Shown here in pieces: positions 33,592 to 50,146 of a stretch of DNA of 64,000 bases. Position numbers and translations under genes: made by a program. The first letter of the stretch is position 1, and each line of letters begins with the position of its first letter. The notes beneath the pieces are model-generated. The model searched no databases. It was not told where the DNA came from and was given only the letters and a program-made list of their open reading frames with translations. Source of the DNA: Geodermatophilus aquaeductus (GTDB lineage Bacteria > Actinomycetota > Actinomycetes > Mycobacteriales > Geodermatophilaceae); assembly GCF_900182545.1 (NCBI RefSeq), contig NZ_FXTJ01000007.1, positions 62,001 through 126,000 of the forward strand, in the 5' to 3' direction.

Positions 33592-34419
33592 TCAGCGACC
33601 CCGGTAGGTGGCCTGCCCGGGGCCCTCGTCGAGGAAGGAGGCCACCGCGCCGCGCAGGTCGGCGGTGCCGAACAGCGGCCCGGACACCTGCGGCGTGATC
33701 TCGTCGGCGGCCCGCACGCCGTGGCGGACCGCGGTGGTGACCAGGCGCTTGGTGGCCGCGTGGGCCAGCGTCGGGCCGGCAGCGACGCGGTGGGCGTACG
33801 CGCGGGCGGCCTCGGCGAAGCCCTCGTCGGGCAGCACGCGGTTGACGACGTCCCACCGCTCGAGGACCGCGGCCGGGTAGCGCTCGCCGGTGAAGACGAG
33901 CTCCTTGGCCCGTGCCGGCCCGGCCCGCTCGGCCAGCCGCTGCGGCCCGCCCATCGAGGGGGTCAGGCCGACGACGATCTCGACCAGCCCGAACGAGGCC
34001 CGCTCGGCGGCGAGCAGCACGTCGCAGGCCAGGGCGAACTCGAACGCGGCGGTGAGGGTGAGCCCGTGCGCGGCGAAGACGGTGGGGACCGGCAGGTCCT
34101 CCAGCGTCTGGGACACGCGCAGCAGCCGCGCCCACAGCGCCGTACCGCGCTGTTCCGGGTCGGGGCCCTCGGCGATCGCGCGGAAGGCGGTGACGTCGAC
34201 GCCGCCGGAGACGACCTTGCCGCGCGCCTCGAGGAGCACCGCCCGCGCGCGGTCGGGCCGGCCGGGCTCGGTGAGGGCGACCAGCTCGGCGACCGCGGCC
34301 TCGAAGCCGGCGAACACCGACTCGTCGAAGAGATTGAGCGGGGGCTTGTCCAGCACGACGACGGCGACGTCGCCGTCCCGCTCGATCCGGACGGGGGCGG
34401 CGCTGCCGGCGTCGGTCAT
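33592..34419 (-). CDS. Enoyl-CoA hydratase/isomerase family protein
   Basis: 275 residues from ATG 34419 (MTDAGSAAPV); an in-frame codon at 34464 is rejected because it would start inside the hairpin downstream of the HIT gene. It shows the crotonase fold: LDKPPLNLFDES at the start, a first oxyanion-hole region at KVVSGGVDVTAF, and AAHGLTLTAAFEFALACDVLL for the second. The catalytic Glu positions of true hydratases are not clear, so the reaction cannot be fixed. Confidence 0.88.
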   Translation of the reverse strand: MTDAGSAAPVRIERDGDVAVVVLDKPPLNLFDESVFAGFEAAVAELVALTEPGRPDRARAVLLEARGKVVSGGVDVTAFRAIAEGPDPEQRGTALWARLLRVSQTLEDLPVPTVFAAHGLTLTAAFEFALACDVLLAAERASFGLVEIVVGLTPSMGGPQRLAERAGPARAKELVFTGERYPAAVLERWDVVNRVLPDEGFAEAARAYAHRVAAGPTLAHAATKRLVTTAVRHGVRAADEITPQVSGPLFGTADLRGAVASFLDEGPGQATYRGR

Positions 34420-34442
34420 GCCCGCCACCCTGCCACCCCCGT

Positions 34443-34480
34443 CCCCGGCGGCAGGAATGGCCATTTCTGCCGCCCCGGGG
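34443..34480 (-). terminator. Near-perfect inverted repeat after the HIT gene
   Basis: The centre AATGGCCATT has arms GGCGGCAGGAATGG and CCATTTCTGCCGCC (one mismatch) and extra C/G runs outside. It begins directly after the HIT stop (34481) and stands before the enoyl-CoA hydratase start. Confidence 0.65.
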
Positions 34481-34840
34481 TCAGCCGGGAGGCCAGGTGA
34501 GCGGGCGGCCGCCCAGGACGTGCAGGTGCAGGTGGTGGACGGTCTGCCCTGCGGCCGGGCCGGTGTTGGCCACCAGCCGGTAGCCGGGCTCGGCGCCGTC
34601 GTCGGTGACCAGGCCCTCCTGGACGGCGACCGCGTGCGCGGAGGCCACCACGTCGGCCAGCAGCTGGGGATCGGCGCCGACCAGCAGCCCGGCGGTCGCG
34701 TGGTGCTCCTTGGGGACCACCAGCACGTGCGTCGGCGCCTGCGGGTTGACGTCGCGGAAGGCCAGCGTGCGGTCGGTCTCGTGCACGACGTCGGCAGGGA
34801 TCTCCCGGGCGACGATCCGGCAGAACAGGCAGTCGTTCAC
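34481..34840 (-). CDS. HIT family protein (HINT-like nucleotide hydrolase)
   Basis: 119 residues from GTG 34840 (VNDCLFCRIV), the usual start of the family. N-terminal CLFCRIVAREIPADVV, then VLVVPKEHHA, and the catalytic HIT motif VHHLHLHVLGG near the C-terminus. It hydrolyses AMP-linked substrates such as phosphoramidates. The upstream in-frame start at 34891 would place coding in the repeat cluster. A TAGGGT box (34848-34853) seven bases before the GTG supports a leaderless transcript from here. Confidence 0.93.
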   Translation of the reverse strand: MNDCLFCRIVAREIPADVVHETDRTLAFRDVNPQAPTHVLVVPKEHHATAGLLVGADPQLLADVVASAHAVAVQEGLVTDDGAEPGYRLVANTGPAAGQTVHHLHLHVLGGRPLTWPPG

Positions 34841-34847
34841 CCGGCCG

Positions 34848-34853
34848 ACCCTA
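34848..34853 (-). promoter_or_regulatory. Leaderless-type -10 box (TAGGGT) before the HIT gene
   Basis: TAGGGT followed by seven bases and GTG, the same geometry as at selD and comEA. Confidence 0.55.
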
Positions 34854-34877
34854 GGGGGCGCCGACCCGTGCGGCGCG

Positions 34878-34962
34878 GCGTCCTGGCTCACCGTGACGCG
34901 TCCTGGCTCACCGTCGACGCTGAGTCAGGACGCAGCACGATCAGGTCACCTGATCGTGCTGC
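34878..34962. repeat. Direct and inverted repeat cluster upstream of the HIT gene
   Basis: A 17-base direct repeat GCGTCCTGGCTCACCGT lies at 34878-34894 and 34898-34914. The second copy pairs with TGAGTCAGGACGC at 34921-34933. It is followed by a 15-bp perfect inverted repeat with a one-base centre (34932-34946 and 34948-34962). The cluster fills the 129-base gap between rsmE and the HIT gene and may end the dnaJ-rsmE transcript. Confidence 0.8.
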
Positions 34963-34969
34963 GGCGGCG

Positions 34970-35752
34970 TCAGGACCAGCGGGAGCGGGCGGAGAGCGCG
35001 GCCAGCGCGGCGGCGCCGGCGGTGGAGGTCCGCAGCACCTCGGGGCCGAGCCGCACCGCCTGGGCGCCGGCCGCGCGCAGGGCCACGACCTCGCCGTCGG
35101 TGAGCCCGCCCTCGGGGCCGACGACGACCGCCACGGTGCCCGACGCCGGCAGCTCGACCCCGGCCAGCGGGCGGCGGGCCTGCTCGTGCAGGACGAGCGC
35201 GAGGTCGACGTCGGCCAGCTCGCCACACACCTGGCGGGTGGTCATCAGGCCGGCGACCTCGGGCACCCGCGGCCGGCGCGACTGCTTCGCCGCCGCCCGC
35301 GCGGCGGCCCGCCACTTGGCCAGCCCCTTGTCGACGCGGTCCTCCCGCCAGCGGGTCACGCAGCGGGCCGCGGCCCACGGGATGACCCGGTCGACGCCGA
35401 GCTCGGTGGCGAGTTCGACCGCCAGCGGCCCGCGGTCGCCCTTGGGCAGCGCCTGGACCAACAGGAACTCCGGCTCGGGCGCGGGCACCTCGTGGCGGGC
35501 GGTCACCCGCACGCGCAGCCCGGCCGGGCCGGCGTCGACGACGACCCCCTCGATCAGCGCGCCGCGGCCGTCGCCGACCCGCACCGGCTCGCCCGGGGCC
35601 AGCCGCACGACGTCGACGGCGTGCCGCCCCTCCGCGCCGTCGACGAGGACCTCGTCGCGGTCGAGCAGCGCCGCGGCCGGCAGCTCGTCCAGCAGGAACA
35701 GCGGCGCGCCGTCGAGGGCGGGCCGGGCGTCGTCAGGGGCGGGAGCGCTCAC
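34970..35752 (-). CDS. rsmE: 16S rRNA (uracil1498-N3)-methyltransferase RsmE
   Basis: 260 residues, GTG 35752 overlapping the dnaJ stop (GTGA). The N-terminal PUA-like region ([21 protein letters not shown]) precedes the SPOUT domain with [15 protein letters not shown] and [17 protein letters not shown], forming the knot that binds S-adenosylmethionine. It modifies U1498 in the 16S decoding region. The place after hrcA-dnaJ is the conserved one. Confidence 0.95.
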
Positions 35753-36885
35753 TTGAACGGGTTCCGGACGCGGGAGAACAGCCCGCCGTGCGCCTCCGCG
35801 GAGGGTCCGGGGCGGTCCTCGCCGCGCAGCACGGCCAGCTCGCGCAGCAGCTTCTCCTGCTCGGCGTCCAGGCGGGTCGGCGTCTGCACGTCGACGTGCA
35901 CCAGCAGGTTGCCCCGGCCGGTGGCACGCAGCCGCGGCGCGCCCTGGCCGCGCAGCGTCAGCACGGTGCCGGCCTGCGTGCCCGGGCGGACGTCGACGTC
36001 GGTCTCCTCGCCGTCGAGCAGCGTGAGCGGCAGCGTGGTGCCGAGCGCGGCCGCGGTCATCGGCAGCGCCACGTGGCAGTGGAGGTCCTCGCCGTCGCGG
36101 GTGAAGACCTCGTGCGGCCGCTCGCGGATCTCCACGTAGAGGTCGCCCGCGGGGCCACCGCCGGGGCCGACCTCGCCGCGGCCGGTGAGCCGGATCCGCA
36201 TGCCGTCCTCGACGCCGGCGGGCACCTTGACCGGGATGGTCCGGCGGGCGCGGACGCGGCCCTCGCTGCCGCACTCGGGGCAGGGGTCGGGGATGACCTG
36301 GCCGGTGCCGGCGCAGGTCGGGCACGGCCGGCTGGACACGACCTGGCCGAGGAAGGAGCGCTGCACGCTCTGCACCTCGCCGCGCCCGGAGCAGGTGGTG
36401 CAGGTGGTCGGGTGGGTGCCCGGGGCGGTGCCGGCGCCGCTGCAGGTGCCGCACAGGACGGCGGTGTCGACGGTGATGTCCTCGGTGGTGCCGAAGACCG
36501 TCTGCTCGAGGTCGAGCTCGAGGCCGATCAGCGCGTCGTCGCCGGCGCGGACGCGGCTGCGCGGACCCCGACCACCCACCCCGCCGCCGAAGAAGGCGTC
36601 CATGATGTCGCCGAGCCCGCCGAAGCCGGCCCCGCCGAACGGCGAGCCGGCGGCCGCGCCGGCCCCGCTGTCGAAGGGGTCGCCGCCGAGGTCGACGATG
36701 CGCCGCTTGTCCGGGTCGGTCAGCGCCTGGTACGCGCGGCTGACCTCCTGGAAGCGCTCCTTGGCCCCGGGGTCGGGGTTGACGTCGGGGTGCAGGTCGC
36801 GCGCCAGCCGGCGGTAGGCCTTCTTGATGTCGGAGTCGGAGGCGCCCCGGGCGAGTCCGAGGACGCCGTAGTAGTCGGTTGCCAT
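35749..36885 (-). CDS. dnaJ: Chaperone protein DnaJ (second copy type, HrcA-linked)
   Basis: 378 residues from ATG 36885, 14 bases after hrcA. J-domain with the HPD motif in [15 protein letters not shown], a Gly/Phe linker, a zinc domain with four C-x-x-C-x-G-x-G repeats ([32 protein letters not shown]), and a C-terminal substrate domain. It stimulates DnaK ATPase. Being downstream of hrcA, it should be under HrcA/CIRCE control. Confidence 0.96.
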
Positions 36886-45254: not shown

Positions 45255-47000
45255 TCAGCGCAGCCGGCGGCTCGCGTCGGGCAGGCGCTGGGTGACGCCG
45301 CGGGCGTCGAGCCACTCCATCAGCGGCACCGCCACGCGGCGCGAGGTCCCCCACGCCGAGCGGGCCTGGCTGAGCGTGAACGGCTGCGGCAGCCCGGCCA
45401 GCCGCTCGCGCGCGACCTGCTCCACCCCCGGCGCCAGGTAGACGCCGTCGGCGATGCGGACCAGCTGCCCGTCGCGCACCGCCGCCGCCAGCTCGCGCGG
45501 GCCCAGCCGGGCGGCGCGCAGCTCCTCGGCGTCCGGCGCGGCGAACGGATCGGCGGCCAGCCGGCTCCGGATCGCGTCGACGGCGCGCTGCACGGCGGGC
45601 GGCAGGCCTGCGGCGGCCACCACCACGCGGCCCTCGCGCAGCGCCAGCGGCGGGCGGACGACGAGCGCCACCAGGTCGTCGGCGGGCAGGTCCAGCTCCC
45701 GGCGGACGACGGCGACCGGCGGCCCCGGCTCCAGCGGGTGCGCCTGCCGGTGCGCGGCCACCAGCCCGGGCACCCGCCGGGCGAGCGACCCCACCAGCCC
45801 GGGAGCGAGCAGCCACGGGCCGGCGCGGACGGCGTCGTCGGGCACCGGCCAGCCCATCGCGGTGAAGTCGTCGGCGCGCACCACCCGCCGGCGCGCGAGG
45901 TCGGCCGCGGCCCCGGCCGGCCCGGCGTCCTGGGCGTCGAGCTCGGCGGCCCGCTGCCGGGCGGCACCGCGACGGCGCAGCTCGGGCGGGGCGACGTCGC
46001 GGACGTCGGCGCCGAGCACCCGGCGGGCACCCGGGTCGCGCAGCAGCACCCGGTCGCCCACCCGCAGCGGGAGCGCCGAGGCCAGCCGCAGCCGCAGCGC
46101 CGTCCCCTCCAGCGGGCGCAAGCGCACCGGCACCGCCGCCGACCCCACGTGCAGCACCGCCTCGGCCGGCAGCCGGTCCGCCGGCTCCCGCGCCAGGACG
46201 ACGTCGACCTCGTCGGTCTCCCGGAAGGCGCCGGGCGTGAGCAGCGCGTCGCCGCGGGACAGGTCCTCCACGGCGACGCCGCGCAGGTTCAGCGCCACCC
46301 GCGCGGTCGCCGTCGCCCGCTCCACCGGCCGGCCCAGCGACTGCACGCCACGCACCGTGACCTCCCGGCCGCCGAGCCGCAGCCGGTCGCCCGGCGCCAC
46401 GGACCCGGCCGCCAGCGTGCCGGTGACCACGGTCCCGGCGCCGCGGATGGGGAACGCGCGGTCGATCCACAGCCGCACCGGCGCACCGGCGTCCGGCGCG
46501 GGGAGCCCGGCCAGCAGCGTCTCCAGCGCGGCCGCCAGGTCGTCGACGCCCCGCCCCGCCGGGGCGCTCACCGCCACGCCCGGCACCACGCCCATCGACG
46601 TGGCCGTCAGCCGCTCGGTCGCGTCGGCCAGCACCGGCGCGGGGTCGGCCAGGTCGGCCTTGGTGACGGCGAGCAGCGCGTGCCGCACGCCGAGCGCGTC
46701 GAGGACGGCGACGTGCTCGGCGGTCTGCGCCGACCAGCCGTCGTCGGCGGCCACCACCACGAGCGCGGCCGGCACCGACCCGACGCCGGCGAGCATGTTG
46801 CCGACGAACCGCTCGTGCCCGGGCACGTCGACGACGGCGACCACCCGGCCCGAGGGCAGCGTCGTCCAGGCGAACCCGAGGTCGATGGTGAGGCCGCGGC
46901 GGCGCTCCTCCTCCCACCGGTCGGGCTCCATGCCGGTGAGCGCTCGGACCAGCGTGGACTTGCCGTGGTCGACGTGCCCCGCGGTCGCGATCACCTGCAC
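45255..47000 (-). CDS. selB: Selenocysteine-specific elongation factor SelB
   Basis: 581 residues, GTG 47000 inside the selA 3' end (10-base overlap). The GTPase core has GHVDHGKST (8-16), DVPGHERF (about 58) and TKADL (about 113). EF-Tu-like barrels follow, with AFPIRGAGTVVTGTL. The C-terminal winged-helix region ends with PLMEWLDARGVTQRL and binds the SECIS RNA hairpin. It delivers Sec-tRNA to the ribosome at the recoded codon; the codon is read by the tRNA, here probably UAG. Confidence 0.95.
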   Translation of the reverse strand: MQVIATAGHVDHGKSTLVRALTGMEPDRWEEERRRGLTIDLGFAWTTLPSGRVVAVVDVPGHERFVGNMLAGVGSVPAALVVVAADDGWSAQTAEHVAVLDALGVRHALLAVTKADLADPAPVLADATERLTATSMGVVPGVAVSAPAGRGVDDLAAALETLLAGLPAPDAGAPVRLWIDRAFPIRGAGTVVTGTLAAGSVAPGDRLRLGGREVTVRGVQSLGRPVERATATARVALNLRGVAVEDLSRGDALLTPGAFRETDEVDVVLAREPADRLPAEAVLHVGSAAVPVRLRPLEGTALRLRLASALPLRVGDRVLLRDPGARRVLGADVRDVAPPELRRRGAARQRAAELDAQDAGPAGAAADLARRRVVRADDFTAMGWPVPDDAVRAGPWLLAPGLVGSLARRVPGLVAAHRQAHPLEPGPPVAVVRRELDLPADDLVALVVRPPLALREGRVVVAAAGLPPAVQRAVDAIRSRLAADPFAAPDAEELRAARLGPRELAAAVRDGQLVRIADGVYLAPGVEQVARERLAGLPQPFTLSQARSAWGTSRRVAVPLMEWLDARGVTQRLPDASRRLR

Positions 47001-48301
47001 CGGCGTGCCACCTCCAGCACCGCGGCGGCCAGGTCGTCGTCGGCCGACGGCGGCACGCTGCGCAGGTCCAGCAGCGTCCGGTCGTCGGCGAGGTACCCGA
47101 CCACCGGCCGCGCGCCCAGCCGCAGCGGCTCGGCGAGGCCCGCGGGCAGCGAGACCGCGGCGCTGGGCAGCGGGTGCTCGGGCGCCCCGCCCCCGCCGAC
47201 GCGGGCGGCCGAGTCCACGGCCCGGGCGTCGAGGCCGGCGGCGGCCAGCCGGGCGGCGAGCGCACCGGCCCGCGCGCGCAGGTCCGCGACGTCGGCGGCG
47301 AGCATCTCCTGCACCGGCGGCAGCGGTCCGCGCAGCGTCGCCTCGAGCGCGGCCAGCGTCGTCTTGTCCACCCGCAGCGCGCGGTAGAGCGGGTGCCGGC
47401 GCAGCCGCTGCACCAGCTCCGCGCGGCCGAGCACCAGCCCGGCCTGCGGGCCGCCGAGCAGCTTGTCGCCGCTGGCCAGGACGAGGTCGGCGCCGTCGGC
47501 CAGCGTGGTCTGCAGGTCCGGCTCCTCGGGCAGCGCGGGGTGCGGGCGCAGCAGGCCCGAGCCGACGTCGGCGACCAGCGGGACGCCGGTCCCGGCGAGG
47601 CCGGTCGCGAGCGTGGCCACCGGCACCGCCCGCGTGAACCCGCGGACGACGAAGTTCGACGGGTGCACCTTGAGCACCGCGCCGGTGCCCGGGCCGAGCG
47701 CACGGGTGTAGTCCTCCAGCGCGACCCGGTTGGTGGTGCCGACCTCGCGCAGCCGCGCCCCGGTGGACTCCAGCAGCTCGGGGATGCGGAACCCGTCGCC
47801 GATCTCGACCAGCTCCCCGCGGGCGATGACCAGCTCGCCGCCGAGCGCCGTCGCCACCAGGGCCAGGGCGGCCGCACAGTTGTTGACCACGATCGCCGCC
47901 TCGGCCGCCGGCACCGCGGCCAGCAGCGCGGACAGCGCCGCCTCGCCCCGCGGGCCGCGGCGGCCGGTGCGCAGGTCGAGCTCGACGTCGGTGGTCCCGC
48001 TCGCCGCGACCACGGCGTCGACGGCGGCCGGCGACAGCGGCGCCCGCCCGAGGTTGGTGTGCACCAGCACGCCGGTGGCGTTGAGCACCGGCCGCAGGCT
48101 GGCCGCCGTCGTCGGCAGGTCGGCCAGGACCGCGGCGACGGCGTCCTCCGGGTCCAGCTCCCCCGCGCGGACGCGGGCCTGCACCGCGCGGACGACGTCC
48201 TTGACCAGGTCGCGGCCGAGCCGGGACGCCGCGGCGGCCAGCGCCGGGTCGCCCAGCAGCGTGTCGGTGCGGGGCACTGCCCGCCGCGGGTCGGCGCTCA
48301 T
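46991..48301 (-). CDS. selA: L-seryl-tRNA(Sec) selenium transferase SelA
   Basis: 436 residues from ATG 48301, 40 bases after the selC tRNA. A PLP enzyme converting Ser-tRNA(Sec) to Sec-tRNA(Sec). N-terminal NATGVLVHTNLGRAPLS, central VNNCAAA, ADVGSGLL, and the PLP lysine in LASGDKLLGGPQAG (Lys280) are all present. Order selC-selA-selB suggests one unit for the machinery. Confidence 0.96.
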   Translation of the reverse strand: MSADPRRAVPRTDTLLGDPALAAAASRLGRDLVKDVVRAVQARVRAGELDPEDAVAAVLADLPTTAASLRPVLNATGVLVHTNLGRAPLSPAAVDAVVAASGTTDVELDLRTGRRGPRGEAALSALLAAVPAAEAAIVVNNCAAALALVATALGGELVIARGELVEIGDGFRIPELLESTGARLREVGTTNRVALEDYTRALGPGTGAVLKVHPSNFVVRGFTRAVPVATLATGLAGTGVPLVADVGSGLLRPHPALPEEPDLQTTLADGADLVLASGDKLLGGPQAGLVLGRAELVQRLRRHPLYRALRVDKTTLAALEATLRGPLPPVQEMLAADVADLRARAGALAARLAAAGLDARAVDSAARVGGGGAPEHPLPSAAVSLPAGLAEPLRLGARPVVGYLADDRTLLDLRSVPPSADDDLAAAVLEVARRCR

Positions 48302-48341: not shown

Positions 48342-48437
48342 TGGCGGAGGCGGACGGGAATCGAACCCGCCTGACCGAGCTGCTCGGCCACGTCGGCTTT
48401 AGAGGCCGCGGGGGCCACCAGACACCCTGACGCCTCC
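48342..48437 (-). tRNA. selC: tRNA-Sec with CUA anticodon (reads UAG)
   Basis: A 96-nt gene with encoded CCA. The acceptor arms GGAGGCG (48431-48437) and CGCCTCC pair fully, followed by discriminator G and CCA. The T-arm GCGGG-TTCGATT-CCCGT is standard. A long variable arm GGCCGAG-CAG-CTCGGTC is typical of tRNA-Sec. The anticodon loop is CTCTAAA, closed by CGGC/GCCG, so the anticodon is CTA (48400-48402), complementary to UAG rather than the usual UCA for UGA. Directly upstream of selA. A class II tRNA for Leu or Ser is unlikely given this context and loop. Confidence 0.93.

Positions 48438-49138: not shown

Positions 49139-50144
<1,006 letters not shown>

Positions 50145-50146
<2 letters not shown>

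Follow-up and report, generated by a model that had tools for sequence, protein, structure and literature searches.

A selenocysteine tRNA with a CUA anticodon beside selA and selB in Geodermatophilus aquaeductus, and the probable reading of UAG as selenocysteine

The window, by which we mean the whole 64,000-nucleotide stretch of Geodermatophilus aquaeductus DNA that was analysed, carries a tRNA gene together with three genes for the synthesis and delivery of selenocysteine (Sec):

48342..48437, minus strand: selC, tRNA-Sec with a CUA anticodon (loop CUCUAAA), 96 nt including the encoded GCCA, found by ARAGORN and Rfam
46991..48301, minus strand: selA, L-seryl-tRNA(Sec) selenium transferase, 436 aa, TIGR00474 with 414 bits (cut-off 267.9)
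45255..47000, minus strand: selB, Sec-specific elongation factor, 581 aa, TIGR00475 with 279.3 bits (cut-off 242.25)
49139..50146, plus strand: selD, selenophosphate synthetase, 335 aa, TIGR00476 with 389.8 bits (cut-off 125)

The genes selA and selB lie downstream of selC on the same strand; selD is on the opposite strand. SelD has a Cys, not a Sec, in its GGGCACK motif.

ARAGORN finds a single tRNA in the window (48342-48437, minus strand), reads its anticodon as CTA and labels it tRNA-Pyl. The Rfam covariance models (cmscan) assign positions 48437-48346 to tRNA-Sec (RF01852), over the full model (1-91), with 65.4 bits and an E-value of 4.6e-11; the gathering score is 47 bits. In this alignment the loop CUCUAAA faces CUUCAAA of the model, the variable arm is long, and positions 8 and 9 on the acceptor side, which belong to the 8+5 acceptor/T-stem feature, are marked as non-standard pairs. 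The cloverleaf comes from the covariance model only; the free single-strand fold of the gene is a different one.

The usual anticodon of a tRNA-Sec is UCA, and the window gene has CUA instead. According to the part of PMC5330540 available to us, CUA forms are counted as tRNA-Sec, so UCA is usual but not required. The window selC is thus a tRNA-Sec with a CUA anticodon. This confirms the initial annotation, which had described a 96-nt class II tRNA with a long variable arm directly upstream of selA-selB, had read CUA from the loop CTCTAAA, and had proposed ARAGORN and a covariance model as a check.

The genome to which the window belongs (28 contigs, 5.43 Mb, 99.97% complete) holds no second RF01852 match over the cut-off on any of its contigs, and the UCA tRNA-Sec pattern is absent from it. 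A canonical selC beside the CUA gene was therefore not found. Six other matches to RF01852 stay below the cut-off and are called by ARAGORN as tRNAs for Ser (three), Leu, Thr and Met.

Formate dehydrogenase and the UGSC family are the selenoprotein families that we examined, both in this genome and across the Geodermatophilaceae. A search of the genome with Pfam PF00384 leads to contig 13, where the gene of a molybdopterin oxidoreductase contains a single in-frame TAG:

L015:5718-9008, minus strand: fdhA, formate dehydrogenase, 1096 residues, with a single in-frame TAG at codon 187

Read as Sec, this TAG places U at residue 187 (NQARI-U-HSATVPGLG), which is the Sec site of formate dehydrogenase. 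With Cys at residue 187, the protein scores 1916.2 bits against the formate dehydrogenase model NF041513. A UGSC-family gene on contig 2 has its TAG at the U of the U-GSC motif. Hence, as anticipated, in-frame TAG codons do occur in formate dehydrogenase and in another selenoprotein gene of the same genome; neither of the two is a selenoprotein gene that uses UGA.

A SECIS hairpin was expected to follow these codons, and here the outcome is mixed. The bases 3' of the fdhA TAG are predicted to fold into a hairpin with the apical loop GGUCU, which we take to match the fdhF loop of E. coli. The folding energies are weak compared with shuffled sequences: for fdhA, z is -1.89 over 56 nt and 0.08 over 77 nt, and for the UGSC gene it is -0.41.

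Codon conservation is more informative than these energies. GGT CTG is kept in all 36 FdhA loci with TAG. Among 30 FdhA genes with 86 invariant Gly columns, the only column that uses GGT in 30/30 genes lies seven codons past the TAG, within the apical GGUCU; mean GGT use at invariant Gly columns outside codons +1 to +20 is 7.4%. However, GGT use reaches 97% at the Gly column +34, which lies outside the hairpin, and codons that are fully invariant are only slightly more frequent at +1 to +15 (6/12) than before the TAG (25/67). In the UGSC family, 21 of 22 TAG loci share one pattern; in all 21 the predicted hairpin has AGT as its Ser codon.

To place the window in its family, 112 Geodermatophilaceae genomes were searched with CUA and UCA tRNA-Sec patterns. 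The CUA pattern occurs in 101 of them. The UCA pattern occurs in eight: seven fragmented assemblies from three other genera (g5, g6 and g7), and Geodermatophilus sp. LHW52908 (G058), which alone among the 112 has both anticodons. Neither pattern was matched in G067, G071, G097 and G098. The last two, at 72 and 80% completeness, have TAG in FdhA without a CUA match.

The Sec codon follows the same distribution. At an E-value of 1e-80, FdhA matches are present in 100/112 genomes (131 rows). Leaving out 13 rows that do not span residue 187, TAG is present in 118/118 (98 genomes). Four of these rows (G061, G024, G009 and G029) also contain a TGA; in every case it is the stop at the C-terminus (codons 1092, 1089, 1096 and 1093). 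A direct reading of 43 FdhA loci, 38 of them with the motif, gives 36 TAG, one TGA and one TGC. The 36 comprise 35 loci from the family search or G058, and one (L202) from a MAG titled Frankiales that groups with the family. The TGA, at the same Sec site, belongs to a MAG titled Jatrophihabitans (L201) and the TGC to a Coriobacteriia MAG (L195). The UGSC family shows 72 rows with TAG (48 genomes), 23 without a stop and none with TGA, 95 in all. TAG sits at the motif in all 22 TAG loci that were fetched; of eight fetched loci without a stop, seven have TGC at the motif and the eighth was not printed. Across the 112 genomes, the Sec codon goes with the anticodon.

In a tree of SelA+SelB with 57 rows, the 55 CUA rows split from the two UCA rows with a branch support of 100. 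Geodermatophilus amargosae, with 94% identity, is the row closest to the window. In the loci read first, a change in the D-stem appeared to go with the CUA anticodon, but L079, L146, L177 and L191 do not follow this rule.

Two side observations concern single members of the family. On one contig of Blastococcus endophyticus there are two CUA selC genes (L177 and L191) that differ from each other; both are accompanied by sel genes, and tens of kilobases lie between them. G079 (compare Modestobacter sp. Leaf380; L084, L085) has two FdhA copies, and in each the segment around the Sec codon is missing and the reading frame shifts at that point.

How should UAG in this genome be described? ORFs were called by a simple GC3 rule, which is rough and was applied without one-by-one checking. 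By this count 37 of 40 window ORFs end in TGA, in line with the earlier statement that most do, and three end in TAG; at least one of these three (33890-36139) seems on visual inspection to be in the wrong frame. Applied to four further stretches of the genome, the rule gives 19 TGA and four TAG. One of the four is the Sec codon of fdhA, so that TAG stops number 3/22.

The initial annotation had called the case a natural codon reassignment rather than a sequencing slip. That it is no slip stands, with CUA in 101/112 genomes; the word reassignment does not fit as well. Because TAG still ends 3/40 and 3/22 ORFs, the case looks like context-dependent recoding: UAG seems to act as a stop, though rarely, and to take on Sec as a second meaning in certain contexts. 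It is plausible that the motive for the switch was, as had been suggested, that Sec left the busy UGA.

We are highly confident that the locus is the selC-selA-selB and selD set of a Geodermatophilus species and that selC serves the insertion of Sec at UAG. The product of selC would be charged with serine, and SelA would convert the Ser-tRNA to Sec-tRNA with selenophosphate from SelD. SelB would then deliver the Sec-tRNA to those UAG codons that have a SECIS hairpin 3' in the mRNA. In this genome such targets would include codon 187 of fdhA and the UGSC-family gene; elsewhere UAG would act as a rare stop. For the history, we infer as the simplest course a single switch from UGA to UAG in the ancestor of the core Geodermatophilaceae. 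In it, UCA would have become CUA in the anticodon and C-G would have replaced U-A at the 31-39 pair, with the Sec codons changing afterwards.

Three other accounts of the locus were weighed. On the first, the gene would be a tRNA-Pyl, or else an amber suppressor of general action, placing another amino acid at all UAG codons. The ARAGORN label speaks for the former, but it was given because of the CUA anticodon, and the Rfam assignment together with the sel genes leads us to reject it: RF01852 matches over the whole model, and the long variable arm of the window gene is unlike that of tRNA-Pyl, which measures three nucleotides (PMC7609411, in the part available to us). For either a tRNA-Pyl or a suppressor, the gene would also be oddly placed beside selA-selB, and TAG would not be expected at the known Sec sites of selenoprotein families. 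We consider this account highly improbable. A cell that decodes both UAG and UGA as Sec, through a second tRNA that escaped detection, is conceivable given that the congener Geodermatophilus sp. LHW52908 has a second, UCA tRNA-Sec. In the genome studied here, the searches for a second tRNA-Sec over the cut-off and for the UCA pattern both came back empty, and we regard such double decoding as very unlikely, if somewhat less so than the tRNA-Pyl.

Even less credible, to the point of being negligible, is a sequencing slip or a dead gene, in which the true anticodon would be UCA or the Sec system would be decaying. The departure from the usual UCA might suggest it. Yet CUA recurs in 101/112 genomes, which makes a corrected sequence with UCA very unlikely, and TAG stands in 118/118 of the FdhA rows that span the site. 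Furthermore, selA, selB and selD are open and score over their cut-offs, and the GGT seven codons past the TAG is kept in 30/30 genes. We therefore retain the reading in which the window selC serves Sec insertion at UAG.

UAG-decoding tRNA-Sec had been said to be reported for Geodermatophilus and Blastococcus, and the literature bears this out. PMC5330540, in the part available to us, describes a CUA tRNA-Sec in three Geodermatophilaceae genomes with formate dehydrogenase and UGSC selenoproteins and a TAG-encoded AhpC in Blastococcus saxobsidens; it cites Mukai et al. 2016 (doi 10.1002/anie.201511657) for UAG-decoding tRNA-Sec. Excerpts of two further papers state that UAG specifies Sec in Blastococcus (PMC5133445) and that UAG, UAA and ten sense codons are used for Sec in some species (PMC10778597). 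Since UAG-encoded Sec has already been published for the Geodermatophilaceae, the phenomenon in the window is known. The window provides another example of this published exception; what appears to be new lies in two cases outside the window. For the cases in Geodermatophilus and Blastococcus, the 2016 study by Mukai and colleagues reportedly gave confirmation through 75Se labelling or mass spectrometry.

The window case resembles the published Geodermatophilus and Blastococcus cases in its bacterial family, its CUA anticodon, and its formate dehydrogenase and UGSC selenoproteins, as far as the excerpts describe them. The sampling differs: three CUA genomes in the excerpt of PMC5330540, compared with 101/112 here, along with UCA in three other genera, both anticodons in G058 and a case in the Coriobacteriia. 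With canonical bacterial selC (UCA anticodon, UGA codon) the window shares the tRNA-Sec covariance model, SelA, SelB and SelD, and a predicted hairpin with GGUCU after the codon. Unlike canonical selC, it has CUA, the Sec codon UAG, and a C-G instead of a U-A pair beside the anticodon loop. With the tRNA-Pyl system it shares the CUA anticodon and the UAG codon, but not the three-nucleotide variable arm (PMC7609411, in part), and the window gene has sel genes adjoining.

The first of the two cases outside the window comes from a scan for the CUA pattern in one genome per species (84,980 species). Of the 91 stretches that matched, 86 carry titles of Geodermatophilaceae genera or of the family. 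Among the five exceptions, L146 (a Frankiales MAG) falls within the CUA rows of the SelA+SelB tree. L111, titled Bacillus, equals in length a contig of the Geodermatophilaceae genome G030. L167 is an ordinary tRNA (RF00005, 37 bits). L120, a 4.8-kb CUA contig in the Jatrophihabitans-titled MAG G114, is probably a bin contamination; the FdhA of this MAG uses TGA. In-frame TGA occurs in two PF00384 proteins of that MAG and was read at the Sec site in one of them.

The fifth exception (L182, also L252; G112:C6) belongs to the Coriobacteriia MAG S32M_St_metabat_43. Its tRNA-Sec scores 64.2 bits, has a CUA anticodon and directly follows selA-selB (614.7 bits to TIGR00474 and 379.5 bits to TIGR00475). 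GrdA of this MAG has TAG at the Sec site (CFV-U-TSAGAMDLE; PF04723, NF040748). GrdB matches TIGR01918 over 431/431 positions and contains one TAG, at STUGTCTRCG. Among 395 genomes of the MAG's order, 17 carry GrdA; apart from the MAG itself, all of them (16) use TGA at this position. A row with both TGA and TAG (G315) has its TAG 113 codons past the Sec site, at the C-terminus. The sole PF00384 protein of the MAG has Cys at the site.

On the 66-kb contig of this MAG, TAG ends 15 of 61 ORFs; two of the 15 are accounted for by the GrdB Sec codon and, judged by position, maybe other recoded ends. The fold after the grdA TAG is unconvincing compared with shuffles (z 1.22). Taken from this one MAG, the sequences point to a switch to UAG for Sec in the Coriobacteriia that is apparently new and independent of the Geodermatophilaceae. 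A limited literature search, which did not include Mukai et al. 2016, found no published account of it.

Viral contigs were looked at as well. Three match the CUA pattern (L192, L193 and L194), and none of them reaches the tRNA-Sec cut-off. By Rfam, L192 and L194 are ordinary tRNAs of about 90 nt with CUA, and L193 gives no tRNA. Another 47 viral contigs (L268-L314) match the UCA tRNA-Sec pattern; perhaps these are prophage ends at selC.

The second case is Geodermatophilus sp. LHW52908. It has a CUA tRNA-Sec on contig 11, selA, selB and selD, and TAG in its FdhA and UGSC genes. On contig 17 (L078) it has a second tRNA-Sec, with UCA, which scores 81.8 bits and lies beside an AhpD-like ORF:

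L078:1169-2157 (G058:C17): UCA tRNA-Sec and AhpD-like ORF; the ORF starts 316 bp from the tRNA and has one in-frame TGA

Read through this TGA, the ORF (P0003) has 192 residues. It matches the CMD family PF02627 with 28.1 bits (cut-off 23) and TIGR01926 over the cut-off; its match to NF041238, a model of alkylhydroperoxidase-related selenoproteins, is far below the cut-off. The TGA replaces the second Cys of a CxxC motif: NRCFYU, compared with NRCEPC and NGCEYC in two homologues. A seven-pair hairpin 3' of the TGA folds no better than shuffles.

The surroundings of the pair suggest that it was acquired. The first 6 kb of contig 17 have 62-66% GC and most of the rest has 70-79%. Around the pair there are, by eye, transposase-like ORFs. 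In a comparison of tetranucleotides with seven references, the part of the contig from 18 kb on comes closest to other contigs of G058. P0003 has no relative among the viral contigs and none at an E-value of 1e-25 in a set of 396 further genomes from the order; plasmids yield 329 matching records, all with less than 60% identity. The same contig holds an ALIL pseudoknot (RF01497, a frameshift signal of IS elements) at L078:9125-9253, with 65.8 bits.

On the simplest reading, a mobile stretch would have brought a UGA selenoprotein together with its tRNA, and the host would supply SelA, SelB and SelD. It is less likely that a chance nonsense change hit the Cys codon beside a stray tRNA-Sec, or that the assembly was joined wrongly. 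If the mobile stretch is the explanation, this cell would use two Sec codons, UAG and UGA, which apparently is new: a similarly limited search, again without Mukai et al. 2016, gave no published account of a genome with two Sec codons.

The standard code cuts the fdhA and UGSC genes at TAG, and ARAGORN misnames selC as a pyrrolysine tRNA.

For the family, the window is one more well-supported instance of a published departure from the genetic code, and the three genera with UCA may lie on the other side of the switch. The two cases outside the window make a question testable: how can the Sec codon change if the tRNA and all Sec codons have to do so at once? A cell with two tRNAs resembles an intermediate stage of such a change; in LHW52908 this state seems to have come later, via gene transfer. 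The switch seen in another class suggests that such a change can happen more than once. Taken together, we think it likely that the Sec codon has moved between stops more than once, with an independent switch in the Coriobacteriia, and that it has doubled in LHW52908, where UAG would serve FdhA and the UGSC protein, and UGA would serve an AhpD-like CxxU protein from an acquired stretch that has its own UCA tRNA and depends on SelA, SelB and SelD of the host.
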